Source: Saccoglossus kowalevskii (taxonomy: Eukaryota > Hemichordata > Enteropneusta > Harrimaniidae). Taken from it: DNA of 20,013 bases. Location: contig NW_003147774.1 in assembly GCF_000003605.2 (NCBI RefSeq), positions 154,353-174,365 of the forward strand, given 5' to 3'. Every line of letters starts with the position of its first letter. The first letter of the stretch is position 1. Under the pieces are notes generated by a model. It made no database searches and was not told the origin of the DNA. It saw only the letters and a list, made by a program, of their open reading frames with translations. Made by a program: the position numbers and the translations under genes. Of the stretch, positions 464 through 20,013 are shown in pieces.

Positions 464-640
464 AAACCTTATAAGTCCAATAGATGGTCTATGTGTCAAC
501 GTCCATGTATAAGCCACATTATGTTCCCATCCTCTCATTTCTGGATCATGCCATAATAACGTGACTTGATCTGTTGTATCATATGAATGCCATAGTGCAT
601 CACTCAATGTTTTACCCGGACCAGTACTGGATATAACTTT
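464..640 (-). CDS. Exon 24: thrombospondin C-terminal domain, later part (last exon in window)
   Basis: It encodes [40 protein letters not shown] and [16 protein letters not shown]-x-T-G-P-G-x-x-L-x-x-A-L-W-H ... L-W-x-D-x-x-x-x-G-W-x-x-x-x-x-Y-x-W-x-L-x-H-R-P-x-x-G-x-I-R is the family signature. I placed the donor at GTATGT after Phe. An alternative, GTTTGT four bases earlier (exon from 468), would end it mid-codon. Reading through instead meets TAG within 8 codons and would drop about 45 residues, so the last exon must lie left of the window. Confidence 0.9.
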
Positions 641-3600
641 CTGAAACAAAAAATATCCAAAAAAAAAATAAGATTAGTAATGACCATGTCCATGGAAATC
701 TTGGACCTCTCATTAATATTATCTTCTATTGAGACTAGAATAACTACTGGTTTTTAATTTGAGGGCAGTAGAAATATGGTCAACAACAATTACCGGTACA
801 TCACAATAAAATAAAACTCTAAGCACATTTTTAAAAGAAGCAAATAAAAATTTGCTGAACCATTATAATATTATTTATTTTGACTATACACACATCTCTG
901 TCATTTATATGCACACATGCACTACTAACGCAGCAAGTATGGTATACCGGATAATAACAAAGTAAGTTTTATGTAGAACAAAGAAGTAATGAAGCTTCTT
1001 AGTACAAATCATCATCGCAATGTTGGGTGATCAATGTCAAACAAACTATGCCCAAAAGTCATAATTCATAACTGCTAAAAATGAATCATATAAATGAAAA
1101 AACAAATTTCATAAATTTATCATGTAAACTCTTTTAGCTAGTGTTGTTTGAGGATACAAATCCTTGAAAAAATGTCTGGTTTATGATTTTTTTTTTGCAG
1201 AACAGATACCTACATGTAATTAAATTGATACAATCAAAGAATTTCATTGTAAATTTAAGCACTACTATGCACCTCTCCCTCACCACATAAATCATTTAAA
1301 AAATAGTGTGAGTGAAATTATGTTTTACTGTTCTTCAACTGATCCTCACCTTTATCTGTAAACCTTTTATACCAGCTCTATAATCAGGATAATTTAAATT
1401 CTTATGTCTCCACATCACAATGTAAAACTTTCTACTGCTTTGATATCCAAACACAAAACCCATATAATTTGTACCGACATCAGAATTTACAAACAATGTA
1501 CCAGAGTAATCCACTGGTCCAAAGTAATCACGACCTATCAACATGAGTGGCATTTCAGTGTCTGCTAACTGGTGAACTTCTTTGCCCTGTAAAAATAATA
1601 ATAAATTATATTACAGACCGATGGAAGATACAATCACCATACTGCCTTTGTAAGTTTTTTGCAGTATTCTCTTATTAATATACATCTTTTTCTGTCACGC
1701 GCAACTACCCTGTAGAGGCATCCTTACATACATGCTGTCTGTAGTGATAATGTATTGGTAGGTTAACAATCCAAAATGGCAGTGAAAGGGGATTCATGAT
1801 CAGGAGTTCCGCTAAGTTCTGAAGTAGGTGGCTATATAGATTTAGAAAGTAGGAGTCCATAATGTGACTCTGTTCATCTATAGATTGTGATCCTTAAAAA
1901 CACAAAGTAGTCAATTTAAATAGCTCAGTAACCAGCTATTTAAGTGGTATATAGAGGATAATATTTGGTAATTGTTGTCTTTTTATCTAAGTGCTGGCTC
2001 TTAATTTTTTCACCACAAGTATAGTCTTTTCATCACAAATTCACAAAATAGTCCAGTTTATAGTCTGCACTTTCCTTCAGAACATTGTGACAAAAATAGC
2101 GAAATTTTTTGAGTCAAAATTGAAGAATAACTCAAATTTTGTTTGTTGGCTCAAAAATTAGGGTTCATTTCCAGAAATATTGAAAAATATAAGAAAACAG
2201 TGCAGAAAAAATTGGACGAGGAAGTCTGATGGTGAAAAGGTTAACAAACCCTGCATGAGAGATATCTGGGGATCTAAATATCAATGCCCAAAATTTTCAT
2301 CTGTTTTCACAATTTATGAACATTTTATAACATTTGAAAGCAACATGAATGCTGACAGTACAAAATCGACTTGTTTGGCATAAACCTGAACTTGAAATAA
2401 TGAAGTCTCCATGAAAAACAGCATATTCTTGATAACTGAAAGCAGTAATCTCTTTTGCTTGTTCAATAAATACTGTCATGCGCACAGTAGAAACTCAACA
2501 TGATGATACCTACCTGATCAACTAAATACCATACTGGGGGTGCTGCGTCTGTTAAAGTAGGGTCCAACTCAACTGATATATAATCTTCAAAACTAGTTGT
2601 TTGATAATTTATATTTTTTGGGCAATTGTCATATTCATCATCAATGCCATCTCCATCATAGTCGTCCTCGCAATCATCTCCAACCAAGTCACCTAGAAGA
2701 GAAAATATTGATTGAAGCGATTAAACAATGTGATCAAGTCACAATATGCAACCTACTATAATGCTACCTTGGCTGTTCAATATAGCAGAATCTAATTAAC
2801 CAGATAGCTGACCACTCTTGGACATAACCATTGAAATATAACAATACAATAGTCACAGTAGACTTTCAAATCTAGCTGATTCCAGTTTATGTCACCCAGT
2901 CAGCAAAATGATCTAGATGGATGAAAGCATAGATTGTTCTTTGAATTGACATTTCGATCTGCTTGCTGTGCAGTGGTTCATCAGTTAGTATATGACAACC
3001 ACAACTAGAGATCAAAACGGCAGATCAAATGAAATAAACATGTTGAATGTTGTCCCGTCCGCCTGTTTATGTCACAGAAATGACTTTAGCACTGTATTAT
3101 CATTGCTCACTTAATTCTCAAACAATTTTTTAAATACTATATCATGTAAAATATTCAGTTACGTTGCTAATAGAAAGAAAACAAGTGTTGGAATTTGTAA
3201 GTTTCATCATATAGCTGCTATATACTGTACTATGTTAAGATTACCATTCAAGTCTGTCTGTGTTGGATTTGCTACCAGTGGACAATTATCAGATGTATCC
3301 GGGATACCATCACCATCTTTATCTTCATCACACATATCACCCACACCATCTCCATCAGTGTCTAACTGATCTGAGTTTGGTACATTCTCACAATTGTCAG
3401 CAAAATTGGGAATACCATCACCATCTCTGTGAAATAATAAAAACATTGATTTTGACTGGGATATAAAGTTTCACCAGACCAACCAGTGATTTGTCTGTCG
3501 CTTTTTTAATGAGCAAAAAAACAATCACAACAATATTTTTGTAGTATATATTGTAAATATATTTGGCAAATCATACAAATGGTAATTTATTAAATTTTCA

Positions 3601-6600
3601 TGTATGGAATTCCTACTTAATAAAGGCTGAAGAAATATTTTCAGATTCTAGTGGCGGAACTACTGTGATTACATTGTGCTGATAAGTGAAATTTGCTATT
3701 AATATTAAACATATGTGAACTTAAATAACATAACTCATTGTTTTACTGAAAATATGGTACTACTGTAAATGCAATATTTATTCACCTGTTTTTATTTTCG
3801 CTATTTTTGCTGATAGGTAAAATTCGCTAAACTCATAGTTTTCACATCAAAATAGTGAAATTAAATCCAGTGAAAACAAATGGTTATATAGTACTGTTCT
3901 TTATTAGAGGTATGCATAAGAAATAGGGCAGTGCATAAGCAGTGTAAGTTGTATTTACCTGTCTTTATCTGTTCCATCAGGGTCATCGCATGCATCACCC
4001 CATCCATTATGATCACTATCAGTCTGGTCTGTGTTGCCAATATCAACACAGTTATCACATGCATCACCTACACTATCACCATCCCCATCTGCCTGGTCAC
4101 TATTGGCAACAAATAAACAATTGTCTGTATCATCTAAAACACCTAGATAGAGATAGAAAAACATGAAACAAATTAGCGCATCACCAGATACACTGTATTA
4201 TTTCAGCACACATATGACTGCAATGGATCTGAACTTGGCATACGTTAAACTGTGTGGCAATCTTCCTTTTATGAAGACCTTTTAGTCTGGTGTCTTGAAA
4301 AAAACATTGAATTGTTGCCATAAAAACAATACAGTGTTTGATAGGTTAGACATATGCAAGTTAAATAATTAACATATTGAATGTTAGAAATGTGGTCTGT
4401 AATGACTTTTTGACCTGGCTTTTTGACCCGAAGCCACTACAGTGTCAGTTTGACCTGGTATTTTGTAATCTTCTTTTCAGAAGGATTTTTCCCAAATTGA
4501 TGCAGTGCTCTGGATATGTCTACAGAACATAGGACAGACTCAATTCAGCTTTTAAAACTATGCCAACATGAACAAAATTCAAAATTCTTGAAACAAATCA
4601 ATCTTGTAACTTAGCATCAATATTTTTATCACTATAACAGTAACATATATATCTACATCATCATCATTATCTAACTTACTATCATTATCATCATCAGTAT
4701 CACATATATCACCATCTCCATCATCATCATTATCTAACTGATCAGGATTGAGATCATTGACACAGTTGTCACAGTCATCACCAACACTATCACCATCAGT
4801 GTCAGTCTGACCAGGATTCTTGACATATTGACAATTATCCTACAAATCAAATAGAGAAGCACATCAGATATTTTTGAAAGAGGTGTCTTCCTTTAAAAGT
4901 GAGAAGGCATATCAGTAGTAGACACTAGAGGGCAGTGTTTATACTTACATCCTCATCATAGATGCCATCGCCATCATCATCTCTATCACATATGTCTCCT
5001 TTATTGTCATGGTCATTGTCTTCTTGTCCACTGTTTGGAATGACATCACAATTGTCAGCTTTACAAATGTCTTCATTGCAGTGCAACGCAATGGCTGGGT
5101 ACCCATCGCCATCGATGTCATAACCACAGTAAACACCATCACCAGCATACCCATCATTACACTGATGAATTCACAAGAATACATTTCAATAATGTATGTA
5201 ATAACACTGTTTCACTATATTTTGGAAAATGAGTTTTGATACCGACTCTACAATGAGAACTGTAGAATTTTTTGAATGGGGTCAAGATTGAAGAATGTCA
5301 AAAATTCTGAAAGTCTGAAAGTTGTATAATCGAACTTTTTCACATTTCTAGATCAAATCTGGAAAACAAACTAAGGGAATTGTCAGCATCCTTTATTTTA
5401 GGTTTTTGTCATATTACCTCAAACCCTGCAAATAGAAGTGTGCATGGAATCATGGGAAGAAGCATGGTGCATTGCCGTGTGATAACTGTCATAAAGGTGA
5501 TTGACAGGACATACAATGTACTTGTTTTCAACTCTGGAAGGACAAGTAGAATCTACCAGGTGTGCTTGAGATTTACATAACAAAGGGTGTTTACAACTTT
5601 GGAAGAAGAATTAAAATCTATCAGGTGTGCTGTTATTTGAAGTAAGTAAGTAAGTAAGTAATTCTTTATTGCTATCGTATCCCATTTGAGATCTTGACAA
5701 AAAGTACAATAAAGTCAAAAACATGTAATAATAAAAAAATGAAAAATAAAAGGAAATACTAAAAATACAGTAAGAAATAAGAAAGGATGTTTATGATCTA
5801 CTGAGTTGCTACATGACACAGTTGCTAGCAAGATCACATTCTGATTGGCTAATGTGGAAACCCAGATTCTTCATTCATGACTGTACATTTCTAAACTGCT
5901 TGGCATCATATTTTCATACCTCACTTTAGTTGCATCCCCATCTTGTATTATGTGCAGAACACCTCCCACCGATTAAAAATGATAAATTAGGTTGTTTTGA
6001 CCAGAAATACTGGAATACTGAGCTAACTGAATACCTGCAACATGGTTGTGGTATGTAATTACTAAATCAAATGTACTTTTCATTATTGTAATCACTCAAA
6101 ACCGCTATTTTATTATTCTAAATTTAATTCCAAGATTCTGTTGGATAGGATTTCTCATGAAACATACAAAATCCAATGCCCTTATTATATTTACATGGAC
6201 CAGGTCTCACATATTGAAAATGAAAATTTAACTTTTGTGAAATTATACACTTGCAAATACAAAGAAAAATTGTGCATTTTAGTTAACAATGTACTGTGGA
6301 ATACTTTATTTTCGCTGGAATTAATTTTCGCTGAAAAGGCGTTTTGGGCGTTTTGTATGGAATTTATTTTCACCGATTTTTGATGAGTTTAATGCGAAAT
6401 ATAGGAAAAAAAGTATATTCGCTGGATTTTATTTTCACTGAATCATCCAATCAGCGAAAATAGCAAAAATAAAGTATTCTACAGTATTTCTCAATAAATA
6501 AGGCAAAAAAATGTAATAGCATTTTTGCCCCACCACTTGATCTTAGCAGATACAGTTCAGGTAATAGCAAGTTGACATCCAGCGAAAATAGCGAAAATAA

Positions 6601-9600
6601 ATTCCAAGCGAAAATAAAGTATTCTACAGTAACTGAACCTTTGACAGAAGATTGAGATAAGTGTATTTACCTCACATATGTAAGTTCCAGGTCCAGTATA
6701 TATGCAGGTAGCATCATCATGACAATTATTTGTGCCCAAGTCACAGTAATTTCCACTTAAACATCCAATGTATCCATCTCCTATGTAACCAGGTGGACAG
6801 GTACCACAGGTATAACTTCCCTGAAAACATAGAGAATTTGCATAATGTAGTAATTACACACCAATAACAAAGTTACATTAGTAAACTTGTGCCAATTTCA
6901 TCACAATCATCATCATTATCTAAATCACTATCATTATCAGTGTCACACATATCTCCATCACTGCCATTATCAAACTAACTTTCATTTTCATCAGTGATGC
7001 CAATTTAAGAGAACCAGAAAGAAACTAGCAATAGATTTGCTCTATCCGAAGCACATCTCCAATAGAAGTGCATGTAAACTAACAGTTGTATTTATTGTAT
7101 ACTGAATCATTATATTTTCTTAGAACAAATACAGTAGGTAAAACATAATGCCAATTTTATTTTTGAATTTGAGAAGAATGAGAGTATTTTTACTAAAGAA
7201 AATATTTGTCATGTGCTGGGTTTTATCCAAAATCCTACCAGGGGGAGAACTCATTCAGACCACTCAGTTTTCAATTGAAATTCATCAGAGAAAGAGTCAG
7301 TGGAAATTGTAATAAACATGCTACATGTATAACTAGAATATGGAGAAAGCTATATATGCACCAATGTTTACCAACCAACCACAAATATGGGAATGTTTGG
7401 CATGGCTGTCAAGAATGATTAATGTATTTTACATACTGGGATCTATTTGTTAGAATATGTATAAGCATAATGTAGCAAAACATACTTACTATTGTATTTG
7501 TACATACTGACAGTGGATCACAGTTATTGTCACCAGTGAGGCATTCATCAACATCATCACAAACCTGAACAATATGAAGTAAAATATAATTAAAACCCAG
7601 ACCATATAGATGTCATCTAATTACTGTTTCACATTTAAAGTTTGTGCATGGTAATATATTCCTGGTTTGATGTTTACAATCAAAACTAAGAATGAAGTAC
7701 ATACCAAGAAAATTTATGTATTGCAGTATGACCTGCCATGTGCAGCTCTGAAAGACGACAACTTTTAAGGATCCAAAATGTTCAAGAAAATCATGAAATT
7801 AACATTTAATGGTGAACATTTAATGGTTCTACAGTATATAATGTATTACCTACCTGGGTCTGAGTAAGTATGTGTTCTATTCCTACACCATGTGGTGCAT
7901 ATCCACTATAACCACACGGACATCCACTACATGTATATCCAGGTGCTAAATTAATACATTCTTCAAAACATGCACCTGGGTTAGCAGCACACTGAAAATA
8001 CACACACATTTATTAGTATTAGTCTACAGTAAAAAAAGAATAGAACTACCGTTACTGCTATATCGGTATATGGCTTGTTAGGTGTCTGTAAATGATATTG
8101 TCTGGACGTGGAAGTTATTATTATTCATGATATTTAGATATTTATGATATTTATATTTGTTACAAATAACAGTTTTATTATTAAACACTGTCACAGAACT
8201 CTCAGTCACACATTACATTTTTGTAGGGTAAAGCGGGAAACTGAAAGGAGATATGGTGAAAAAGAGATGTTAGGAATTAATATGGAAGACATGCAATGTT
8301 ATCCCAACACATTGTGGTTACCTGATGCAAATATTTAAAGCATGGTGGTCCTTGTGTTCGGTATGCAACATACAAATCAAGTGTTGACATACATTGTTGG
8401 TTTGCCTGCCATACAATGATCATCACCTTGTACTATAGTTATATTTAGGCAAATCAAGAGAATCACAGATAAAATGTGACAATTATTTCAGAAAACAGAT
8501 ATTTATAACAAGATTGCTTTAAGGAGTGTGATTGAAAAAAGCAATGAGAAGAAATTGCCTTATAAAATATATTTGTAAATGGAACTAAGAGATGAAGGAT
8601 GTGGCAGTAAAAGGTCATGTATTGATAACTTTACCTCATCAATATCGATGCATGTTAAGCCATCACCAGTAAATCCCTCTGGGCACTCACCACACGCAAA
8701 TGTACTGCCACCAGTGTTAACACATTGTACATCACCAAAACATGGATTAACGTCAGCCCAACATGGACCTGAAATAACACTTTATTATGAACATATTTGA
8801 ATTCTACTACTGTAAAATGACTAATTTTCACTGGGTTTAAATTTCACTGATTTAGCGTTTCAGGCATATTTAGTGGGTTTAAAATTCACGGTTTTATCAT
8901 TTGGATAATGTGTTCTATGCTCAATTTACATATTCACTGGGTTTTAATTTACCGCATTTTCCAGTCAGCGAAAAAAGCCAAATTAAAACCCAGTGAATAA
9001 TTAACCCTTTTACAGTATTCCACTGGCCATGCTCTAAAAGCATTGTGGATCACTGATTTTAGCTGGAATATATTACAACAGAAAATATCTGTTTGCGTTT
9101 GTTTTTTTTTATTTTCACAGACTTGACATAAATTACACACAGACCTCTTTTACTGGATTTTAAATATCCAAAAAAATATATCGAGTGTTAAATTATATTA
9201 TAAATAGAATTGTTTTAATAATCATATAGTGCCCTCTTGTGGTAAAAAAATAACTTGCTCAGCATTGCTTGTAACATTTCAAAATGGTATTTTTTGAGGG
9301 GTTTGGGAGATCATGGGACGATATTCTTCTAAAATCTGCAGTATATAGAATAATGTAAAAAGATCTGAGTTTATAGTTTATAGTTTATAGTGTTTTCCTA
9401 TCTGGTTTAATTTTATGTCTGACCTCCACTGAACCTATTTAGCATAAAGTAATAAAGATGAGTGAAAACTAAAAGATTTTATTGTGCTTTATGCACAATT
9501 TCATTGAAATAAAAGAAAAACTTTGCTTTTTGTCCCTGATTAGTGATTTTTTTTCTTGGAATATATTAAAGCTTAGCAATTTATTTATTTCGAGATCCTG

Positions 9601-12600: not shown

Positions 12601-15600
12601 CCTGAACTGTATCTGCTAAGATCAAGTGGTGGGGCAAAAATGCTATTACATTTTTTTGCCTTATTTATTGAGAAATACTGTAGAATACTTTATTTTCGCT
12701 ATTTTCGCTGATTGGATGATTCCGTGAAAATAAAATCCAGCGAATATACTTTTTTTCCTATATTTCACATTAAACTCATGAAAAATCAGTGAAAATAAAT
12801 TCCAAGCAAAACGCCCAAAAAGCCTTTTCAGCGAAAATTAATTCCAGCGAAAATAAAGTATTCCACAGTAAGTTGATACACAGATGGAACTCATGCAGAA
12901 TAGAGTTTGATTGGATGTATATAGATATCCTAGTTGCATACCCTCATAATGCCTTGGTATGCGATTATAAACACCTGTGTGGCTGACAATACTAAGTTTC
13001 CCATTGTTACTTTCACCAGTTGGTTACAAAGTTCAATCAAAATTGTCTCATATATTATTAATACTAATATAATTAATATAATATTGTAATATTATTATAT
13101 CAAGGAGAATATCATTTAAAAATTTTCAGTTAAATATACTCACGCAATAGTCTTCTTGCTGGTGTGCAACCTAATAATTCAAATCTTAAACCTATCCCGG
13201 TATTCCATGTTATTGGATTAATTCGTATATGTTGTGATTTGATGGTACTGTGAAAAATGTTGTTCTTAAACGACCCACTATTATGGTTGCCAGTGAATAC
13301 CTGTATAAGTACAGATAAGAAGAATTACAGGATTACTGTCAGAAATTGGCCACTGAGCATTGCCATGGTTATAGGCCATTCACTTTTCTATGTATTCATC
13401 CTATGTATTGTACTGACCCATTGTTTTATGTTATCTCAATCTAGCCCATAACTTGATACATATTTGACCAACTCGATCAGGAAATCCTATTCCCACAATC
13501 ACTTCAGAATATATTACTTACTCAATCAATCAGAGTGCACTCTACTTCAAGAATGAGTGGCCATTAAAAATTGCAAGATTTGAGGAAGACTTCCTATGGG
13601 AGTTTGTAAGATCTATGTGTGGCTTTCACAATAAAAAAGTAACAAAAACAGTAGCAAAATTAAGAAAAGAGAAAAATTACACTTTAAAATTGATCTTATT
13701 TTAATCAGATTGGATCAAGTACATGTATACACTTACCACATCATTCCCATTGTCATCAGTGAAGCTTGTGTAGGTACTTCCATCATCACTGTATTGTATT
13801 TTAAATGTTGTAACCCAGTATTCTTTATCAGGATTACCCTGAGTTACAATGCCATTATAGAGGTATGTCTCACCCATATCAATAGCTAGCCATTGTGATG
13901 TATCAAACACTGCTGGTACCCATCCTAGATATTAGCAAGGTAAAGACATTGGGCTATGATATGTATAACTGTAATTTTATTACACATACATTATACATTG
14001 TGCATGTTGATTATATGTGGATAACACTGTATTTGAAGTGAATTCATAAACTAAATTCATTAAATCAACATTACAATTATGGTGTACGTTAGGTCATGTT
14101 TGTAGATGAAAAACATAACAAACAAAGGTCATAGCATCAGAGTGGCATCAATCTAATTATCACAAAAGTATTTTTGGAGTATTTGCTATGTACATTTGAT
14201 GGTCAATGGTCAATTTTGATGAAGTAACGGTATCTCCACAGCATACTCCCTGCTGATTGGCATTTTGATATTGAATTATAGAAAAAGAAATTTAGGTTCA
14301 AAATTAAATCATTCAATTTTTATGGCAGATGCTTGATCATTTTATGCATTACTTGAGATCTTGCAGTAAAAGAAAAATTATCTATTATTATTATTTAAAA
14401 AACCCTGTGACTATGTTTAATCCTCATTGTTTCTATATTATTTCACTTGTTAGAGTAATAAAAAGAGCTAGGTGGACTGCATCACCCGTTTTCGCAAGCT
14501 CTGATGTAAACATAATCTCTCACAAACAGGTGTGGGATTAAGCTGATAAGTCTTGTATTTTATCTTGGTAAAATTAATAGATCTGATTGGAGGCGTCTCT
14601 AAAGAATGTGCCCAATCGAAGATTGCATAACATGTGACAAATGGTCTTATATATAATGTAGCGTTGTGTTGCCGATCAAGAAGAATTGCCGATGCAGTTT
14701 TTGGTGGCTTTTCCACAGTTCCTAATTGCCATAGTTCCATGATTGTCTCCGGTATGTGGCCTAGGTTCTGAACAAGAACTACTGTTACAGTCTGTTAAAA
14801 CTTATTTATGTAGACTATCACTTGATTTGGTTACAATGCGATTTTGACGCAGATACCGCAGTCGATTCAATGTGTCCGTTCCTTTCAATGCAAAGCACTT
14901 AGTTGGATACAAAGCCTCAGCCTCTAGCATGGGTCGGTTTGTGCAAAATATTGAAATCATTCCCAAAGCAAGTGCACAGTTCTTACCTCAGAGACATACA
15001 GTTGCTATGTTTTTAAACATATGACGGTTCACTGAGAGCATATAATTTGCATCACGCACATGAATATTACCGTGCATTTCAAGGTGGCAGTATGTCTTAT
15101 CGGTGTTTCTTTAGTACAGTGAAAAATTGGGTAACAAATTAATAAAATGAGTGTTGGTGTATTTTTAGCCCTCATGTAACAGATAGTAAAATCCGGGGCT
15201 GAGAAGAAAACTTCTACTGAACAATTTTGCCTGTGATGCAGCTATAATGAGCAATTGACTGGACAATGCATTGAAGAAAATATCTCAAGTATTTCCAGAG
15301 AGGATCGCACTTAAATAAACATTGGCTATATACCATCTGTCAAGGTGTAGTGCTGAGGCCAAGGCCGAATAACTGAACCTTGGCTAGCAAAGATGGGTTA
15401 AGTGGTCTCGCTTTACCTGAGCCTTTTGGTATAGTATCATCTCTTCCTAGTGTCAACCTTGCTCTTTCTTTACTAAACTCATCACTTTCCTCGGATGAAG
15501 CTGACATCCATTCATCACGTACCACATAATTTCTCAAACCAAGTTCTTCCCGACAACCTGAAAAGGTCACATGGAGAACATATAATTTGCAATTATCTTC

Positions 15601-18600
15601 AACCTAGAAGACTACAAGTATGTTGGAACTGGTGAAAAATGGAATTTATACATTTTTTGATAGAAATCTGAAAAAGAAATTATATTATATACTGATTAAT
15701 ACTGAAGTTTGTCAATGAATGTGCTTTATATAAACAATAATCACACATTGCAATTCCCCTTTACATTCAAACAGAATTCAAACAGCCTTCTGACCAACAA
15801 GAACAATATTGCTATTGTGATCCACTAGTAAATATACAGAAAATTTGCTTTTAATGTTTAATATTTGTGTCTTATGTGAAATTAATTGCAAGAAAAAGCC
15901 TGCATGTCATCAATTTATATCATTTAGCAAGTTATAAACACTTTGCAATATGTATTTAGAAAAGAAGAAAAAAACAGTGTAAAGACCATCGTTGGACTTG
16001 TCTCTGTATTCTAAATGAGAAAACTGTAGATATATTCCATGATTGTGAGAATGATGAATGATGCAGATTCTCCTTACTCTAATGATAACACACTATAACA
16101 TGGAATGAATAAACATGATTGGGAAGGAAATAGTACAACAAAACAAACTGTTACATAGCACTTACTGAATTCTAAAATGTAATATTTAGGAACTCTAAGA
16201 TATACTTTTCCAGTAGTATAACCAGTATAGATACTGATATCTATTGGATCACCTCTTGTATCAGTCAAACACGTATCATGCATAGTGATTTCCACTGTAA
16301 CAGTGTCTCCACGTGTTGGGGTACCACCATCTATTGCAGCTAAGGTAAACTCAACTATGCTAGTATCATTGTAATTTGACCTATTTAAAAAAAAAAGCTG
16401 TTAAACTTCTGAAAATATTTTCCTTTTTACAGTGACAGTGCTAAATAATGTATACAATACAATCAAAAAAGCAGAAAATTAAAAAGTGACAACCATGGTT
16501 GCATATGCTAAATATCTGACACAAAATACAATGAAGATGAATGCCTATATCTAGAAATACTGATATATAAACTAGCGAGTCTTACACGAATTACACGATT
16601 TTTCAAAACTGTCAGCTGACAAGAATAGGATAGGAGTAAAGTTGCATGTAATTTCGCCTTTAGGCTTTGATTGAAAGAGTTAAGAATTCCATACACTAAC
16701 ACTATATTAACAACATACCCTTATCTTTTCATCTATGACTGACTACAGTGTTAATGTCTACTTACCTCTCACTGTATTCAGAGACATGGTAAGTCACTTC
16801 CCCACTTACACCACTATCTAAATCACTTGCATTGACAACAAATAGTGGATCCGATTGTAAAATTGGTTGTGGGTACAGACTAATAGTTGATGATTCACTC
16901 AGTTCTGGACAGTTGTCATTTACATCTTGAACGACAACCTGAAAATTTACAACAGTGGTTTGTATTATTAATTTGCTACATAATCATTCAAATTCTTCAA
17001 ATCACCCAGAATTCATTGCCATACTCAATAGTACATCTAGTTTTTACTTTGACATCCAGAATGCCAATATCCCTATGTAAAATATGCATATGGCACAACA
17101 TCGCTTGCCGGCGCCGTTTTTTTCCATAAAATTTGGCTATAGGTGGAGCTCCTAGTAGACCATCGTGTAAACAGACTTCGTATGTATAAAGATGAGCTTG
17201 ATATCATAGTATTTTTGTTACCACTAACCTTGACAACAATTTTGCCATCAGCTGCAGGGGATGCGTTATTGTCAACAACACCAATAATAATCATATATAG
17301 AAAAGCTGCTTCATAATCTAATCCAGTATCCAGAGTTAACAACACATTATCTGTAGTAATGCTAAATTCCTGGCTCCCAGAAACAGCAGCTTCAGTAGCT
17401 GGTGAACAAGGAAATGTTTTCTCTTTTTAAAGTTTCTGAGTACAGTATATAGAGAACTGAAAGACTGAGAATTCTAAACAAACTGTCCATGAACTTTCAA
17501 ACAGATTGTGAGAATGCATTTTTATACCTATTGTTGAATAAAGACATTTCTTCTTGATTATTCATACAGCCATTTCTTGGTAGTGCCAATGATAGGTTTG
17601 TGTCTCCTTTGTTGGCATTTGAGCATGACTCATTGCCTATTTTGTCGTTTAATAAATAAAATAAGTTTTGAATAAAAATGTACATGTTTACTAATGATAA
17701 ATACTCACATACATGTATACTTACCAATAACTGATGGAGACGTACACAACAGGAATGTAGTACCATTGATAGTATCAGTTAAAGGTGGGGTGACTGTGGT
17801 TGGTGGAAGAGCAGCTACACGATTAGCAGTATTGTCTTCAACAATTGTAAAATGTCTTGCTTCATTGCCTGTGAATGAGTGTTTCAATATATACTTTAGA
17901 CAGGTTAATTTTAGCATACTTTTTTTTGCCACATGCCTGTAATGTTAATGTCATGAGTAAAATAATTGAAGTTCACTTTCTGTTGAATCGTTTTTGGAAT
18001 GTTATGTTGCGATCTCTGGTTACATGACAAAACAATGGTGAACATATTTTAATAAATATGACGCATACATCAATCTATGTCAACTTTGCAATAGGTTATG
18101 TTATATTGAACTCTCTTAATAATAATGATTCCTGTGTGATACTATGCATGGAGCAGTCCCGGCTAGTTATTAAATTTAAGATATACAGTTTTATAGTAAT
18201 ATAGTTTGAACACAAACAGTTCAGAAATATGGATCCAGAAGCTGATTGCTCGATTATGATGATTTTTTAACATTAAAATGATTGACATTCAGTCATCTTG
18301 AATCCAATCTGAAAAACAAAATGACGTGCATCAGGGACTCATAATGTCTAATGTACTGTGAATGCATTCATTATTTACTGGGTTTTAATTTCACTATTTT
18401 CTCTGATAAGTAAAATTCGCTAAATTAAATCTATGTGAATATGTAAAATATGGCACTAGAACTAGCTGATATGGCACTAGAACTGCATTCAATGTAACAA
18501 AATTGCCACCAATCAGTCTTTTGAATCCGATCAGAGAATTTTAAGGTATGCGTATAGTTACGTTTAAGATATAGGTCTGGATGCACACATGGACACACTG

Positions 18601-20013
18601 ACACACAAAGGTCAAACAATAGACTTAAAGAAGATGAAAATGAACTGAAAAGATACAATTTAAAATCTTTTTTGGCGCATTGCAAATAAAAAGGATATAT
18701 TTAAGCATTTTTGAAAAATGAACTGTTTCACAGTATACGATAATTCTCAAATAATTTTCAAAACATCAGCAAATTCGAACATTATCATCAAGTGATTTTG
18801 AATACCGGTAATTCGTGCTAAAGAGGAAAAATAAAACTGCAGCTGTTGGTAATCAAACTAAAAGTAAATATTCTGAGTTGTAGAATATATACTTATTATT
18901 ATATATCTATCACCGTAACGCCATAAGTTACAGCGTGCTGTAATTTTGCGGTATTTTACAGGGTATTTTCCTCTAAATATAAAAACAAACATGGCTGCCA
19001 CCATAGTTTACCGAATTCAACATAAAGAAGTTTGCTGATTCTGTTCTAAACATTTTGGATTTAGGTATTTCCATGGTGTATCCTTGGAAGGAAAAGATGT
19101 ATAATAATAAGGTTATTACGAAGATACCTCAAAGTATGCACTCAGACAGTATGCCGTACCTCGACCTCCACTGCGCATTGGTTGTACTCCAGCTGTACTG
19201 TCTTCGTGCATATTCTGAGGTGGGAGATTTTCGTAATAACCTCATATTATTGCATAACTCATACAGACAAATCAGTAAATAATATGTGTCCTGAGGAAAT
19301 ACAGTATTTTTTATATCTAGCATGAAAGGGTGCACATCCAAGTATAATAGTCACCTTGTAAAATGGTTACATTGTAATCACCAACGGAGAATGCATCTGT
19401 TATTACAACAGTTTCTATAATTCCACCAACATGAAAATCTTCATCTGGTTTTACGAGGTAATCTAACGGTGGTTCTACATCATAGTCTACAAACTCTGTT
19501 CCTTCTGTTTCTAAGTAAAATGAGGAACTACATCCAAGTCTTTCAGTGAGAAAGATATCAAAGTGGTAGACATGGCCAGCCTGAAATAAAACAGGAAAAA
19601 AAAGTAAGTATTAAATAATTAATGTACAGCAATAAAGTACTAGTTATGAAGTAGAAACTGTATTGTATCAATGGTGATCATCAACACTTGTCAGTACAGA
19701 TCAGCAATAGACACTAGGTTGAGCAAATGTCAGTAATTAGTAGTACATTAGATTTTATTTTACTACTAGCATTGTCAACTCACCTCAAGATCCAGAAAGA
19801 CCTTTTCATCAGAAAGAGTCTGTGTGATTACACATTTACCATTAACAACTGTCCCTCCTTGTGGTGTGATGTAGCCACCTCCTGAGTTAAGAATTAAGTC
19901 ACAATCAAAGAAAGCTTAGAAAGAACTCCCGTGTGGCTGAGAGTATTGAAGACACATTAAAAATTAATTAAAAATTACATGTACCTGTACATGAGATATT
20001 GATAGAAAAGCTG
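464..20013 (-). CDS. Mega-thrombospondin-like multidomain extracellular protein gene (24 exons seen, both ends missing)
   Basis: Joining the 24 exons listed below (span only; introns included in these coordinates) gives one uninterrupted frame of about 1303 codons, with all junctions phase-compatible and all introns GT-AG. Domain order by approximate residue of this partial protein: fibro-slime 1-85, linker 86-180, cadherin-like 180-345 (two repeats), RGD linker near 350, F5/8C 363-513, cysteine-rich GCC2/TNFR-like 524-694, four EGF-like 694-872, thrombospondin type 3 wire 872-1130, thrombospondin C-terminal domain 1130-1303 (incomplete). Known family behaviour: the type 3 wire and C-terminal domain bind many calcium ions and matrix or cell partners; cadherin repeats bind calcium; F5/8C domains bind lipids, glycans or collagens. 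I infer a secreted matrix or surface adhesion protein. The upstream domains separate it from ordinary thrombospondins and COMP. The signal peptide, start codon, stop codon and any multimerising coiled coil are not in the window. About 45 residues of the C-terminal domain are still to come. Confidence 0.9.
641..1349. other. Intron 23 (709 bp), nothing recognised
   Basis: AT-rich intron between exons 23 and 24, with simple A and T runs. No repeat shared with the rest of the window, no domain remnant and no RNA gene was visible on either strand. Confidence 0.7.
1350..1586 (-). CDS. Exon 23: thrombospondin C-terminal domain, middle
   Basis: It encodes [60 protein letters not shown] and ends [10 protein letters not shown]-[YF]-S-G-T-x-F-[VI]-N and G-F-V-F-G-Y-Q-S-S-x-x-F-Y-x-V-M-W are the strongest family signatures of this domain. 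It is a 237-bp phase 0-0 exon. In known structures this sandwich packs against the calcium wire and carries cell-binding surfaces. Confidence 0.97.
2001..2244 (+). mobile_element. MITE-like repeat family 2, longer copy
   Basis: The left tip TTAATTTTTTCACCACAAG and right tip CTGATGGTGAAAAGGTTAA form imperfect terminal inverted repeats ending in TTAA. A shortened inverted copy is at 178-292. There is no coding capacity. TTAA at both tips would fit a piggyBac-type target site, but this is inference from two copies only. Confidence 0.6.
2514..2692 (-). CDS. Exon 22: last type 3 repeat and start of thrombospondin C-terminal domain
   Basis: [20 protein letters not shown] then YDNCPKNIN is the terminal type 3 unit. 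It passes directly into [20 protein letters not shown] and WYLVDQ, the first strands of the C-terminal lectin-like beta sandwich (family pattern F-x-x-[YF]-x-x-V-x-L-D-P ... W-x-[VL]). It ends in phase 0; the next exon starts GKE, as in the family. Confidence 0.95.
2693..3244. other. Intron 21 (552 bp), nothing recognised
   Basis: Intron between exons 21 and 22. The phrase GTTTATGTCAC occurs twice (about 2886 and 3065), and TTTCGATCTGC near 2953 has a partial inverted partner near 3020. I see no longer structure. Confidence 0.6.
3245..3426 (-). CDS. Exon 21: thrombospondin type 3 repeats
   Basis: It encodes [40 protein letters not shown] and [20 protein letters not shown]. These are among the most canonical type 3 units in the gene (D-x-D-x-D-G-I-P-D-x-x-D-N-C-P-x-x-x-N-P-x-Q). 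The donor GTAATC is weaker than its neighbours but keeps the phase. Confidence 0.95.
3761..3893. mobile_element. MITE-like repeat, small divergent member (TACTGTAAA ends)
   Basis: It begins TACTGTAAATGCAATATTTA and ends ...CCAGTGAAAACAAATGGTTATATAGTA in short form; the two ends are imperfect inverted repeats. The internal phrase GATAGGTAAAATTCGCTAAA is shared with 18354-18435 (GATAAGTAAAATTCGCTAAA). It lies in the intron between exons 20 and 21; the rest of that intron shows nothing. Confidence 0.55.
3959..4142 (-). CDS. Exon 20: thrombospondin type 3 repeats
   Basis: It encodes [40 protein letters not shown] and [14 protein letters not shown]. Two G-D-A-C-D endings and two D-N-C starts give two more calcium-binding units. 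The P in LFVANSDQ-type repeats is replaced, a minor divergence. The exon starts in phase 1 and ends two bases into an Arg codon completed by exon 21. Confidence 0.94.
4143..4637. other. Rest of intron 19, no gene seen
   Basis: The phrase TTTTGACCTGG is repeated around 4408-4465 (three TTTGACC blocks). Nothing else was recognised. Confidence 0.6.
4638..4679 (-). pseudogene. Thrombospondin type 3 repeat remnant directly after the exon 19 donor
   Basis: On the minus strand the intron opens GTAAGTTAGATAATGATGAT, and the in-frame continuation of exon 19 would read [12 protein letters not shown]. The same exon contains [14 protein letters not shown], and the DNA block AGTTAGATAATGATGATGAT occurs in both. 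The donor therefore sits inside a duplicated type 3 unit. The open frame runs on about 30 codons to TGA, without the cysteine a working repeat needs. Confidence 0.6.
4680..4839 (-). CDS. Exon 19: thrombospondin type 3 repeats
   Basis: It encodes [20 protein letters not shown] then [20 protein letters not shown] and [10 protein letters not shown]. It contains alternating D-N-C ... N-P-x-Q-x-D-x-D-x-D-x-x-G-D-x-C-D units. The frame stays open past the donor (GTAAGT) into sequence that still looks like a type 3 repeat; the splice is supported because only splicing joins in phase to exon 20. Confidence 0.93.
4949..5161 (-). CDS. Exon 18: end of EGF 4 and start of thrombospondin type 3 repeats
   Basis: [20 protein letters not shown] completes the last EGF and enters the type 3 wire. 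The stretch [20 protein letters not shown] reproduces the first type 3 repeat of thrombospondins, including the conserved NSGQ-D sequence. It ends [11 protein letters not shown] in phase 0. The Asp-rich loops bind calcium in known thrombospondin structures. Confidence 0.96.
5529..5631 (+). repeat. Diverged direct repeat, about 39 bp at 64-bp spacing
   Basis: CAACTCTGGAAGGACAAGTA continuing to CTACCAGGTGTGCTT (from 5529) recurs as CAACTTTGGAAGAAGAATTA continuing to CTATCAGGTGTGCTG (from 5593). It lies in intron 17. No coding frame persists through both copies. Confidence 0.75.
5641..5660 (+). repeat. (AGTA)5 microsatellite
   Basis: Five perfect AGTA units followed by ATTCTTTATT. On the minus strand this reads AATAAAGAAT then TACT repeats, which resembles the 3' tail of some non-LTR retrotransposons. 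No reverse-transcriptase remnant was seen beside it, so only the microsatellite is certain. Confidence 0.9.
6292..6631 (+). mobile_element. MITE-like repeat family 1, composite copy B
   Basis: It begins TACTGTGGAATACTTTATTT and ends AAATAAAGTATTCTACAGTA, which are imperfect terminal inverted repeats. The same right tip also occurs internally at about 6467-6486, so a second end fragment follows a spacer of about 95 bases (6487-6580) beginning TTTCTCAATAAATAAGGC. That spacer is also present, inverted, in copy C, so it belongs to the element. No protein is encoded. It lies in intron 17, ending about 40 bases from exon 17. Confidence 0.85.
6671..6820 (-). CDS. Exon 17: end of EGF module 3 and EGF module 4
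   Basis: [20 protein letters not shown] closes module 3. [20 protein letters not shown] then GTYICE is most of module 4, whose last cysteines come from exon 18. It is 150 bp, phase 0-0, with donor GTAAAT. A MITE-like repeat ends only about 40 bases beyond the donor (6631). Confidence 0.93.
6891..6990 (-). pseudogene. Thrombospondin type 3 repeat relic inside an intron
   Basis: The minus strand reads [20 protein letters not shown] then [10 protein letters not shown]. It aligns with exon 19 ([14 protein letters not shown]) and its intronic continuation (KLDNDDD) over about 30 residues and clearly at DNA level. It is bounded by TAG just upstream and TAA downstream, lacks a convincing acceptor or donor, and lies between EGF exons 16 and 17, where a type 3 unit has no place. 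I therefore call it a relic of a duplicated exon. Confidence 0.65.
7302..7425 (+). pseudogene. Possible antisense EGF-like fragment, frameshifted
   Basis: The plus strand reads [12 protein letters not shown] and, after a one-base frame change, [11 protein letters not shown]. The pattern C-x-x-x-A-T-C ... G-x-S-Y-x-C resembles an EGF module such as this gene's own [17 protein letters not shown], but on the opposite strand. It could be an inverted duplicate that decayed, or chance. Confidence 0.3.
7490..7564 (-). CDS. Exon 16: calcium-binding EGF module 3, first half
   Basis: A 75-bp phase 0-0 exon encodes [20 protein letters not shown] then CTNTI. D-x-D-E-C ... N-N-C ... S-x-C-x-N-T is the calcium-binding EGF consensus; the next exon supplies GSYTC. 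Splitting the EGF before G-S-Y is a plausible old intron position. Confidence 0.92.
7854..7991 (-). CDS. Exon 15: EGF-like module 2
   Basis: It encodes [40 protein letters not shown] and ILTQTQ. The HGVGIE stretch matches the elongated EGF loop found in thrombospondin second EGF repeats. It is 138 bp, phase 0-0, so the exon could be skipped without a frameshift. The donor is GTAGGT. Confidence 0.92.
7992..8634. other. Intron 14 (643 bp), nothing recognised
   Basis: AT-rich intron between exons 14 and 15. There is an ATATTTATATTT-like stretch near 8140, but no repeat family or coding remnant was found on either strand. Confidence 0.6.
8635..8768 (-). CDS. Exon 14: EGF-like module 1 (thrombospondin/COMP type)
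   Basis: It encodes [20 protein letters not shown], then [17 protein letters not shown] and IDIDE. P-C-W-x-D-x-N-P-C-F followed by C-x-x-C-P-x-G-[FY]-x-G-[DN]-G is the first EGF-like module seen at the start of the conserved C-terminal half of thrombospondins. The exon ends in phase 0 with D-I-D-E, starting the calcium-binding EGF consensus completed by the next exon. Confidence 0.93.
8808..9017 (+). mobile_element. MITE-like repeat family 3 (about 210 bp)
   Basis: It begins TACTGTAAAATGACTAATTT with CACTGGGTTTAAATTTCACT inside, and ends AAACCCAGTGAATAATTAAC then CCTTTTACAGTA. The two ends are inverted repeats of about 40 bases. The interior is made of CACTGGGTTTTAA and CAGCGAAAA motifs similar in style to family 1. 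It has no coding capacity. It lies in intron 13. Confidence 0.75.
9371..9391 (+). repeat. Three tandem TTATAGT units
   Basis: Three perfect 7-bp units in intron 13. The surrounding 9018-9669 shows only AT-rich sequence with no recognised element. Confidence 0.85.
9670..9849 (-). CDS. Exon 13: cysteine-rich module; its 5' edge seeded a minisatellite
   Basis: It encodes [40 protein letters not shown] and [13 protein letters not shown]. About 14 of 60 residues are Cys, in C-x-x-C and C-x-P-G-[SY] patterns. The real acceptor was chosen because only from this copy (minus strand CTTCCAG, exon base 9849) does the reading frame continue through the whole exon into exon 14. The first 42 coding bases and the acceptor are copied eleven more times upstream in the transcript (see the 59-bp array). 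Confidence 0.88.
9808..10515 (+). repeat. 12-copy 59-bp minisatellite made from the 5' edge of exon 13
   Basis: Units start at 9808 and every 59 bases to 10457 (12 x 59 = 708), each beginning ACTGGTTGTTATATGA. Unit 1 is partly exon 13 itself: on the minus strand it contains the pyrimidine-rich acceptor TTTTCCTTCCAG and the first 42 coding bases. Units 2-12 repeat that acceptor region upstream. The CAG is kept in units 1, 2, 4 and 7-12 but mutated to CAA in units 3, 5 and 6. Units 1-3 and 4-6 match as 177-bp blocks, units 7-9 are nearly identical, and units 11-12 are the most diverged. Confidence 0.97.
10516..11343. other. Rest of intron 12 (828 bp), nothing recognised
   Basis: AT-rich. TTTTCCCTCAAAG near 11083 and TTTTTTGAGGGGG near 11145 are weakly complementary. 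No coding remnant or repeat-family member was seen. Confidence 0.6.
11344..11509 (-). CDS. Exon 12: cysteine-rich GCC2/TNFR-like module
   Basis: It encodes [20 protein letters not shown], then [20 protein letters not shown] and [20 protein letters not shown]-x-x-C-x-P-G-x-x-C and C-x-P-G-Y-F repeats continue the module of exon 11; the junction G-W-L-C-T-D-G is typical of GCC2-type repeats. The 166-bp exon ends in phase 1. Confidence 0.88.
11581..11940 (+). repeat. Four diverged copies of a short motif in intron 11
   Basis: Related phrases occur at 11581 (ATACATTTACTTTATTAATC), about 11639 (ACACATACTGTATTGATTCT), 11742 (AACATATACTGTATTAATCT) and about 11897 (AACATTTACTCTGTTAATAT). The second and third continue into similar TCATGTA-GGGTAT sequence. 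Spacing is irregular (about 58, 102 and 155 bases), suggesting an old, decayed tandem. Confidence 0.5.
11966..12126 (-). CDS. Exon 11: cysteine-rich GCC2/TNFR-like module
   Basis: It encodes [34 protein letters not shown] and ends [11 protein letters not shown]. Spacings such as C-x-x-C, Y-Y-C and S-P-C-P-x-G-W are typical of the ephrin-receptor-like (GCC2/GCC3) or TNFR-like cysteine-rich class. The exact family cannot be settled by eye. The end is phase 0 and the donor is GTAAGT. Confidence 0.88.
12368..12523. repeat. Long imperfect palindrome (possible MITE)
   Basis: The left arm TGATCATAGTCTATCAATAG then TCGTCTTGC pairs imperfectly with the right arm GGCAAGATGACTGTTGACAG then TCTATACTGATCA. 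The centre has GTTTCTG and CAGAAAC. The total is 156 bp with no coding potential. It is locally richer in G and C than the flanks, which suggests an insertion. Confidence 0.65.
12582..12870 (-). mobile_element. MITE-like repeat family 1, inverted copy C
   Basis: It is the reverse complement of about 6292-6594 of copy B: it starts GGATGTCAACTTGCTATTAC, carries the same spacer with GGTGGGGCAAAAATGCTATT, and ends ATAAAGTATTCCACAGTA. The outer right end present in copy B is missing, so copy C is truncated or predates it. It lies in the intron between exons 10 and 11. Confidence 0.85.
13043..13105. repeat. Very AT-rich low-complexity tract
   Basis: About 60 bases made almost wholly of TTA, TAA and ATA words, 39 bases from the donor of exon 10 (exon edge 13144). 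Simple sequence; no other function is inferred. Confidence 0.8.
13144..13300 (-). CDS. Exon 10: F5/8 type C domain, C-terminal part
   Basis: It encodes [20 protein letters not shown], then [20 protein letters not shown] and a Cys. The elements F-x-G-N-x-x-x-x-x-x-x-x-N, the basic R-I-x-P-x-x-W and the closing L-R-x-E-L-L-G-C are diagnostic of the domain end. The tail PARRLL leads into the cysteine-rich region. The donor is GTGAGT. Confidence 0.95.
13301..13736. other. Intron 9 (436 bp), nothing recognised
   Basis: Between exons 9 and 10. No shared repeat or coding remnant seen. Confidence 0.6.
13737..13924 (-). CDS. Exon 9: F5/8 type C domain, middle
   Basis: [20 protein letters not shown] is the W-x-x-x-x-x-x-x-x-Q-W-L-x-[IV]-D-x-G signature of F5/8C domains. 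It is followed by [20 protein letters not shown], equivalent to the V-x-x-I-x-x-Q-G ... W-V-x-x-F motif, and by [13 protein letters not shown]. All expected core residues are present. The 188-bp exon starts in phase 1 and ends in phase 0 before VFTGN. The intron upstream of it in the transcript is 1.49 kb. Confidence 0.95.
13925..15416. other. Intron 8 (1.49 kb), no gene seen
   Basis: It separates exons 8 and 9 of the discoidin domain. The part 14460-15060 is less AT-rich than its flanks and holds an open minus-strand frame (14468-14740, 90 codons) with no domain features. It may be a transposon fragment, but I found no second copy or inverted ends in this window. Confidence 0.5.
15417..15557 (-). 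CDS. Exon 8: F5/8 type C (discoidin) domain, N-terminal third
   Basis: It encodes [20 protein letters not shown], then [15 protein letters not shown] and TLGR. This is the standard opening of an F5/8C domain: C-x-x-x-L-G-[LM] ... I-x-D-x-x-[IM]-x-A-S-S ... ARL. The first Cys should pair with the Cys near the end of exon 10 (LLGC). Family members bind phospholipids, collagen or glycans through loops on one end of the beta barrel; the ligand cannot be predicted here. Confidence 0.92.
15558..16165. other. Intron 7 (608 bp), nothing recognised
   Basis: AT-rich, between exons 7 and 8, with A-rich runs near 15960. No repeat family member seen. Confidence 0.6.
16166..16380 (-). CDS. Exon 7: second half of cadherin repeat 2 and RGD linker
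   Basis: [20 protein letters not shown] then TVEI is the closing part of a cadherin repeat (A-x-D-x-G-x-P-x-R ... V-x-V). A linker follows that contains the tripeptide RGD in [18 protein letters not shown], then [11 protein letters not shown] leading into the discoidin domain. A second R-G-D occurs inside the cadherin repeat (TPTRGDTV). The next exon opens with the first cysteine of the F5/8C domain. Confidence 0.88.
16381..16765. other. Intron 6 (385 bp), nothing recognised
   Basis: Between the two halves of cadherin repeat 2. A run of nine or ten A (plus strand) next to the acceptor of exon 7 provides its pyrimidine tract. Nothing else seen. Confidence 0.6.
16766..16938 (-). CDS. Exon 6: cadherin linker (DVNDN) and first half of repeat 2
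   Basis: It begins [27 protein letters not shown] is the classic calcium-binding linker between cadherin repeats. It continues [20 protein letters not shown], where DLDSG...G-x-V-x-Y is the D-x-D-x-G calcium motif and following strand of repeat 2. An N-x-S sequon (NAS) precedes the motif. The exon starts in phase 0 and ends two bases into a codon; the donor is GTAAGT. Confidence 0.92.
17229..17398 (-). CDS. Exon 5: cadherin repeat 1
   Basis: It encodes [20 protein letters not shown], then a strand like [10 protein letters not shown] and the closing strand ADGKIVVK. This is the second half of a cadherin repeat: F-x-I-x-T ... L-x-T-x-x-x-L-D-Y-E ... V-x-D-x-x-x-P. The LDYE acidic motif is a calcium ligand site in cadherins. 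The usual A-x-D-x-G is replaced by VVDNNASP, so this repeat is somewhat divergent. The frame runs in phase 0 into exon 6, which supplies the D-x-N-D-N linker. Confidence 0.85.
17399..17724. other. Intron 4 (326 bp), nothing recognised
   Basis: Between exons 4 and 5. An 89-codon minus-strand open frame here (17497-17766) overlaps exon 4 in another frame and shows no domain, so I treat it as chance. Confidence 0.6.
17725..17868 (-). CDS. Exon 4: linker before the cadherin repeats
   Basis: A 144-bp symmetric phase 1-1 exon encodes 48 residues, including [20 protein letters not shown] and [17 protein letters not shown]. The stretch is rich in Thr and Pro, has one N-x-T glycosylation sequon (NGT) and one Cys. 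The VED-N opening resembles the start of a cadherin strand, but calcium-motif residues are lacking, so I call it only a linker or degenerate beta domain. A 1.49-kb intron separates it from exon 3. Confidence 0.8.
18354..18435. mobile_element. MITE-like repeat fragment, relative of 3761-3893
   Basis: It starts TACTGTGAATGCATTCATTA, then has TACTGGGTTTTAATTTCACT and GATAAGTAAAATTCGCTAAA, the last shared with the element at 3761. Only one end is recognisable. The rest of intron 3 (17869-18353, 18436-19102) shows nothing else. Confidence 0.55.
19103..19251. repeat. Imperfect palindrome of about 150 bp (possible MITE)
   Basis: The left arm AATAATAAGGTTATTACGAA then GATACCTCA matches the reverse complement of the right arm (TGAGGTGGGAGATTTTCGTA then ATAACCTCATATTATT). 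Further in, AGTATGCACTCAGACAGTA pairs loosely with TACTGTCTTCGTGCATATT. Overlapping open frames on both strands are a by-product of the symmetry. Confidence 0.65.
19355..19580 (-). CDS. Exon 3: fibro-slime domain C-terminal half
   Basis: It begins [20 protein letters not shown], which matches the fibro-slime C-terminal signature (A-G-x-x-Y-x-hydrophobic-D-hydrophobic-F-x-x-E-R-x-x-x-x-S-x-F-x-hydrophobic-E-T). After ETEG comes an acidic, proline-containing stretch ([19 protein letters not shown]), then beta-rich sequence ending DYNVTILQ. Fibro-slime domains were first noted in slime-mould PA14-containing proteins and occur in some animal matrix proteins. The 226-bp exon ends in phase 1 and the donor is GTGACT. 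Confidence 0.85.
19784..19914 (-). CDS. Exon 2: fibro-slime domain core
   Basis: It encodes [20 protein letters not shown], then a strand ending KVFLDLE, followed by a GTGAGT donor. This fits the fibro-slime pattern (hydrophobic-D-x-x-L-hydrophobic ... GG ... Q-G-x-V). I chose the right boundary at the acceptor TTCTTTCTAAG because the extra 11 residues look like the expected strand of the domain. A second acceptor (TTAACTCAG, exon end 19881) lies 33 bases further in and keeps the same frame, so the shorter exon 19784-19881 is possible. The codon before the longer start is TAA, so the exon cannot extend further. Confidence 0.75.
19985..20013 (-). CDS. Exon 1 of window (partial): fibro-slime domain, N-terminal strand
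   Basis: The right edge cuts this exon. The minus strand reads SFSINISCT plus one base, then a GTACAT donor. The phase (one base left over) matches either acceptor of the next exon. The hydrophobic strand would be the beta segment just before the core fibro-slime signature. The exon is too short to identify alone; the call rests on the frame running on into exon 2. Confidence 0.55.

Follow-up and report, generated by a model that had tools for sequence, protein, structure and literature searches.

The gene that fills the analysed stretch of DNA (20,013 nucleotides from Saccoglossus kowalevskii, here called the window) very probably encodes the middle and the C-terminal portion of a bilaterian mega-thrombospondin (mega-TSP), the most likely of the readings considered, and so is most likely an additional member of an already published family, to which one more species is added. 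Mega-TSPs were described in 2019 (Shoemark et al., PMC6526912). As described in the main text of that paper, their bilaterian members contain cadherin, F5/8 or discoidin and growth-factor-receptor Cys-rich domains, followed by EGF modules, type 3 repeats and a TSP_C domain, and mega-TSPs further have a signal peptide, about 1000 amino acids of N-terminal LRRs and a second ConA/MAM-like domain after TSP_C, while FN3 is a typical, not universal, bilaterian addition. The first ConA-like domain is without the DDD motif and reads GID in Hydra and GTD in Nematostella; TSP-DD of Ciona is a bilaterian mega-thrombospondin, no mega-TSP was found in vertebrates, and the family is backed by transcripts according to the authors (PMC6526912). 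The initial annotation had placed the window gene in this class, and both a domain search and a comparison with the published architecture bear the assignment out: cadherin, F5/8C, EGF, type 3 and TSP_C modules match Pfam (Cadherin, F5_F8_type_C, EGF_3, EGF_CA, TSP_3 and TSP_C pass their cut-offs), their order fits that of bilaterian mega-TSPs as published (PMC6526912), and GTN (1467..1475, minus strand, as are all parts of the gene below) stands in place of the canonical DDD calcium motif in an alignment with two other thrombospondins of the same genome.

On the minus strand, 24 exons over positions 468..20013 give a gene fragment with a single open frame of 1290 residues, free of stops and open at both ends; all introns are GT-AG and the exon phases join. 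Exons 1–6 lie at 19985-20013, 19784-19881, 19355-19580, 17725-17868, 17229-17398 and 16766-16938, exons 8–13 at 15417-15557, 13737-13924, 13144-13300, 11966-12126, 11344-11509 and 9670-9849, exons 14–18 at 8635-8768, 7854-7991, 7490-7564, 6671-6820 and 4949-5161, and exons 19–24 at 4680-4839, 3959-4142, 3245-3426, 2514-2692, 1350-1586 and 468-640. The frame was built from stop-to-stop frames and splice-site scores as a model of 23 exons and 1280 residues, with four ends of three exons shifted by one or two bases to sit on GT or AG, and exon 1, truncated at the window boundary (20013), was added later to give 1290 residues. When site score alone decided the acceptors and donors for these 23 exons, each exon's frame being that of the model, 21 of 22 junctions were phase-compatible (binomial 1.4e-9 at 1/3), with the score-chosen sites deviating from the model at two acceptors and two donors. 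Only the junction between exons 3 and 4 failed; there, an alternative acceptor outscores the one in the model. The test ran from the exon 2–3 junction onwards. A simple custom gene finder trained on the 23 exons chained 21 of them and omitted the second and third F5/8C exons, because dropping both preserves the frame; they were kept in the model because all three discoidin exons align continuously to neuropilin b1. The earlier proposal of one gene across the window is thus upheld by the joined frame and the agreement of the junctions. The search for missed exons in four introns of the cadherin region brought no convincing single one, with five weak candidates, none above 0.7 in summed site score, all within 17869-19354. 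Of the 87 kb of adjoining sequence, 75,444 bases are N; the readable 12 kb contained no gene chain on either strand. Rfam and tRNA scans of the 20,013-nt window returned no match.

Several repeated sequences lie in the introns. A minisatellite at 9807-10518 (59 bp unit, 12.1 copies, 95% matches) occupies part of the intron before exon 13 and overlaps the start of this exon; its unit reaches across the 3' splice site into roughly the first 40 bases of exon 13, and CCAGAGTT is found eight times in the array, counting the real acceptor of exon 13. An intronic stretch at 6900-6994 is type 3-like coding sequence with a stop at its start, identical in 64 of 83 columns to the end region of exon 4680-4839; it may be a relic of a duplicated exon or merely GAT-rich sequence, which matches in other registers too. 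Two inverted copies of a 297-nt element (6284-6580 and 12582-12878) are 96% complementary, and related fragments occur between 1 and 177; the element resembles a small mobile element with dispersed copies.

The canonical C-terminal region of thrombospondins, composed of EGF modules, type 3 repeats and TSP_C, is present except for the last part of TSP_C, and all three of its claimed components were recovered by Pfam. The EGF modules, which number four when counted by eye, are encoded by exons 14–17 and the start of exon 18 (5131..8768), where EGF_3 (9.4e-14, three stretches) and EGF_CA (2.9e-10, two stretches) pass their cut-offs and cEGF lies below. The type 3 calcium wire (2599..5130, exons 18–22) matches TSP_3 in five stretches (3.6e-44), and its 268 residues include 81 Asp and 18 Cys. 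The TSP_C (L-lectin-like) domain (468..2598, end of exon 22 and exons 23–24; 3.6e-53) spans profile positions 4-150 of 198, its last quarter falling beyond the window. Human TSP2 (2rhp) aligned to residues 812-1280 and 680-771 of the 1280-residue model with a whole-sequence E of 1.4e-144, and the long insert in EGF2 is common to TSP2 and this gene. At the sites where TSP1 carries RGD and KGD, this gene, judged by eye from the TSP2 alignment, seems to have VGD both times.

Of the domains expected in the central region of a bilaterian mega-TSP, a cadherin domain, with one repeat over the cut-off, and an F5/8C domain were found. The F5/8C (discoidin) domain (13144..15557, exons 8–10) passes the Pfam F5_F8_type_C cut-off (3.2e-23), as the initial annotation implied, and matches b1/b2 of neuropilin-1 with E 4.9e-37. 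With neuropilin b1/b2 and the C domains of coagulation factors V and VIII it shares the family and the cysteines at both ends, but the neuropilin C-end-rule pocket, whose residues we take to be Y297, D320 and T349, is not kept; in the alignment Y297 is replaced by E and D320 by F, and the T349 loop is four residues shorter. Neuropilin-like C-end-rule binding by this domain is rejected on account of these changes. The block that follows (9670..12126, exons 11–13) stands where the growth-factor-receptor Cys-rich domain is expected and has 30 Cys in residues 504-680 of the 1280-residue model. Its description as Cys-rich therefore holds, but the GCC2-like identity given to it earlier is not supported by Pfam, no family of which matched at a maximum E of 10, a setting at which HMMER filters drop most matches above about 0.1.

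Upstream of the discoidin domain the picture is less clear. Residues 1 to about 68 (19505..20013, exons 1 and 2 and the start of exon 3) may be the C-terminal part of a fibro-slime-like module. Profile TIGR02148 matches with E 0.0086-0.022 and 15.2-16.5 bits against a curated cut-off of 45 bits, through one 30-residue piece that corresponds only to the final third of the profile; the domain itself is truncated at the edge of the window, and the stretch matched nothing in Pfam. A PDB search gave two weak matches, FAT4 (E 0.011, at the start of the following cadherin repeat) and a short, chance-like one (E 0.7). Of the fibro-slime domain first proposed, a weak profile match is left, well below the cut-off; a literature search brought no report of a thrombospondin joined to fibro-slime.

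The proposal of two cadherin repeats stood for the first repeat, while the second proved weaker than claimed. Repeat 1 (residues about 79-232, 16909..19472, from the end of exon 3 through exons 4–5 to the start of exon 6) ends in DVNDN and matches Pfam Cadherin in one stretch (E 6.4e-08, 33.3 bits against a cut-off of 28.8). Because the stretch weakly similar to FAT4 comes after the fibro-slime piece, the repeat seems to start at the end of exon 3 and to contain an unusual insert, largely from exon 4. This exon, 144 nt long and of phase 1-1, interrupts the repeat and is a candidate cassette exon, the skipping of which preserves the frame; the Pfam cadherin score is slightly higher with it (33.6 bits) than without it (30.1 bits). 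The degenerate cadherin-like repeat 2 (residues about 233-310, 16280..16908) is missing its middle and stays below the cut-off (E 0.039, 14.8 bits against 28.8), with phmmer matches to protocadherins extending into its first half; a search of the intron located there for a missed exon gave no candidates. Two RGD tripeptides (residues 303 and 322, 16248..16313) lie near and after the end of repeat 2, against 0.37 expected by composition in the whole 1280-residue model, and may be considered putative integrin sites, no more.

Other thrombospondins of the same genome serve as controls for the DDD site. The search of 572 Mb in 4830 contigs, with the window at bases 154353-174365 of contig C3806, found at least nine TSP_C matches on three contigs, belonging to the window gene and to two other thrombospondin genes, C135 and C354 (loci L021-L023 and L018-L020). 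C135 carries three TSP type 1 repeats like members of subgroup A, the origin of which has been placed in the deuterostome ancestor (PMC6526912); C354, only partly readable upstream, has type 3 repeats with an RGD kept in the wire and a TSP_C domain. A genome with a gene like C135 and a mega-TSP, a kind not found in vertebrates (PMC6526912), would probably be that of an invertebrate deuterostome. Both read DDD at the site where the window gene reads GTN, and over the compared part of TSP_C the latter is 50% identical to C354 and 50% to C135. The gene thus shares with canonical TSPs (TSP1/2, COMP, C135 and, where readable, C354) the EGF2 insert, the type 3 wire and TSP_C, but differs from them in reading GTN instead of DDD and in its cadherin, discoidin and Cys-rich modules, and its part in the window contains no type 1 repeats. 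With bilaterian mega-TSPs it has in common the cadherin, F5/8C, EGF, type 3 and TSP_C modules and the absence of DDD, and in the expected place it has a Cys-rich block that Pfam does not identify (PMC6526912). It departs from them in the possible fibro-slime-like stretch before the cadherin, a module unnamed in the main text of that paper, which names a PA14 domain for the Hydra mega-TSP (PMC6526912). For FN3, typical of bilaterian members, Pfam gave no match in the part of the gene that lies in the window. No architecture of this kind was found in the accessible text of PMC12549020 and PMC8191133, both of which cite the mega-TSP paper.

Two other explanations have to be weighed against a single mega-TSP gene. 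The window might hold two adjacent genes, one for a cadherin-discoidin protein and a separate one for a thrombospondin, as the last ~470 residues by themselves resemble a thrombospondin and the 1494-base intron preceding exon 13 consists in part of minisatellite. We consider this highly improbable: every junction from exon 9 to exon 15 is phase-compatible under the choice of sites by score, a published family, transcript-backed per its authors, has the same content (PMC6526912), and the putative thrombospondin would be without DDD, whereas both C135 and C354 have it. In particular, a split between exons 10 and 14 is unlikely because the four junctions there remain phase-compatible when sites are chosen by score only.

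The gene could also encode another protein of the TSP superfamily, for instance a lineage-specific chimera without the LRR N-terminus. Both ends of the gene fall outside readable sequence, so that neither the signal peptide and LRRs nor the second ConA-like domain is seen, and fibro-slime is absent from the main text of the mega-TSP paper (PMC6526912). Still, the other TSP-related groups, built of sushi repeats with a single EGF or of type 1 repeats, are without cadherin, discoidin or Cys-rich block as described there (PMC6526912), and we give a chimera very little credence. A mega-TSP is consequently retained as the preferred reading.

The absence of DDD raises the question of which state is the older. 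In the 2019 model the DDD site arose inside animals, after the mega-TSP branch (PMC6526912). Genome contigs of bacteria and archaea, scanned with the three TSP_C pieces of this genome, yielded 19 loci, all with DDD, although the seed pattern permitted only D/T and D/N at the last two places. Three of the 19 proteins were analysed further; each matches the Pfam TSP_C profile almost from end to end, and the PEP-CTERM cut-off is passed by two of them. The second draw, made by the Pfam TSP_C profile, was free of the seed pattern, while the profile itself may favour DDD-bearing domains. For the phylum to which the L030 genome (titled Planctomycetales) belongs, 17 of 392 genomes had TSP_C; for the order containing the L033 genome (Nitrosomonas oligotropha), 3 of 399 did, two of these over the cut-off. 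Each tally counts the centre genome, which came from the pattern scan. The same search gave no match in 14 control genomes. Among the 22 loci drawn by Pfam, of which L060 and L078 lie below the cut-off and L068 is cut at the site, the 21 with a whole site read DDD (14), DND (3), and DGD, FRD, APD and QAN (one each). L044 comes from the same genome as L030 and has the same reading, and is probably counted in both sets.

The bacterial TSP_C loci (L024-L042, L044, L057 and L059-L078) include some small PEP-CTERM proteins and some giant open frames, and the frame of L030 also matches Ig-like, cadherin-like and RHS families. An IMG/VR scan for TSP_C gave 101 candidates, none confirmed, and a narrow literature search found no reports of bacterial TSP_C.

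An earlier tree of 22 rows merely separates animals from bacteria. A larger tree has 33 rows, 12 of 41 bacterial loci having been excluded for being short, near-identical or repeated. Its four animal rows group in a single clade (100/99), which a midpoint root places among the bacterial rows, and the program warns of long branches meeting at this clade. In both trees, whose animal rows are the window gene, C354, C135 and TSP2, the branch of the window gene is by far the longest of the four. Neither tree settles the position of the window gene relative to C354, and the larger one also leaves open how these two branch with respect to the C135-TSP2 pair. Because bacterial TSP_C domains mostly read DDD and the animal clade lies among bacterial rows, the data favour DDD as the older state. 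This suggests that mega-TSPs may have lost the motif, on the basis of sequences from one mega-TSP, a midpoint root and long branches, and with transfer from animals to bacteria possible. That DDD predates animals, being common to diverse bacterial TSP_C domains, and was lost in mega-TSPs, contrary to the 2019 model and here alongside a possible fibro-slime-like module, has in our judgement an even chance of being correct.

The product of the gene is most likely a secreted, elongated adaptor of the extracellular matrix and cell adhesion with several contact sites. By homology, the EGF modules, type 3 wire and TSP_C would fold, as they do in canonical TSPs, into a signature region stiffened by calcium, to which the discoidin and cadherin-like modules may add contacts; integrin contact via the predicted RGD or VGD sites is possible. 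Since GTN replaces DDD and the Cys-rich block occupies the place of the coiled coil upstream of the EGF modules, the protein is probably a monomer that would not enter the matrix through DDD-dependent TSP-TSP contact. DDD is reported to be important for the integration of TSPs into the matrix via such contact, while COMP in which alanine replaces all three aspartates was still able to bind collagen (PMC6249252), so the protein may keep ligand binding but not the DDD assembly route. The useful part of this analysis is the test of DDD polarity: the loss of DDD in mega-TSPs, if true, would matter for the question whether the earliest TSP of animals could assemble in the matrix by the DDD route.
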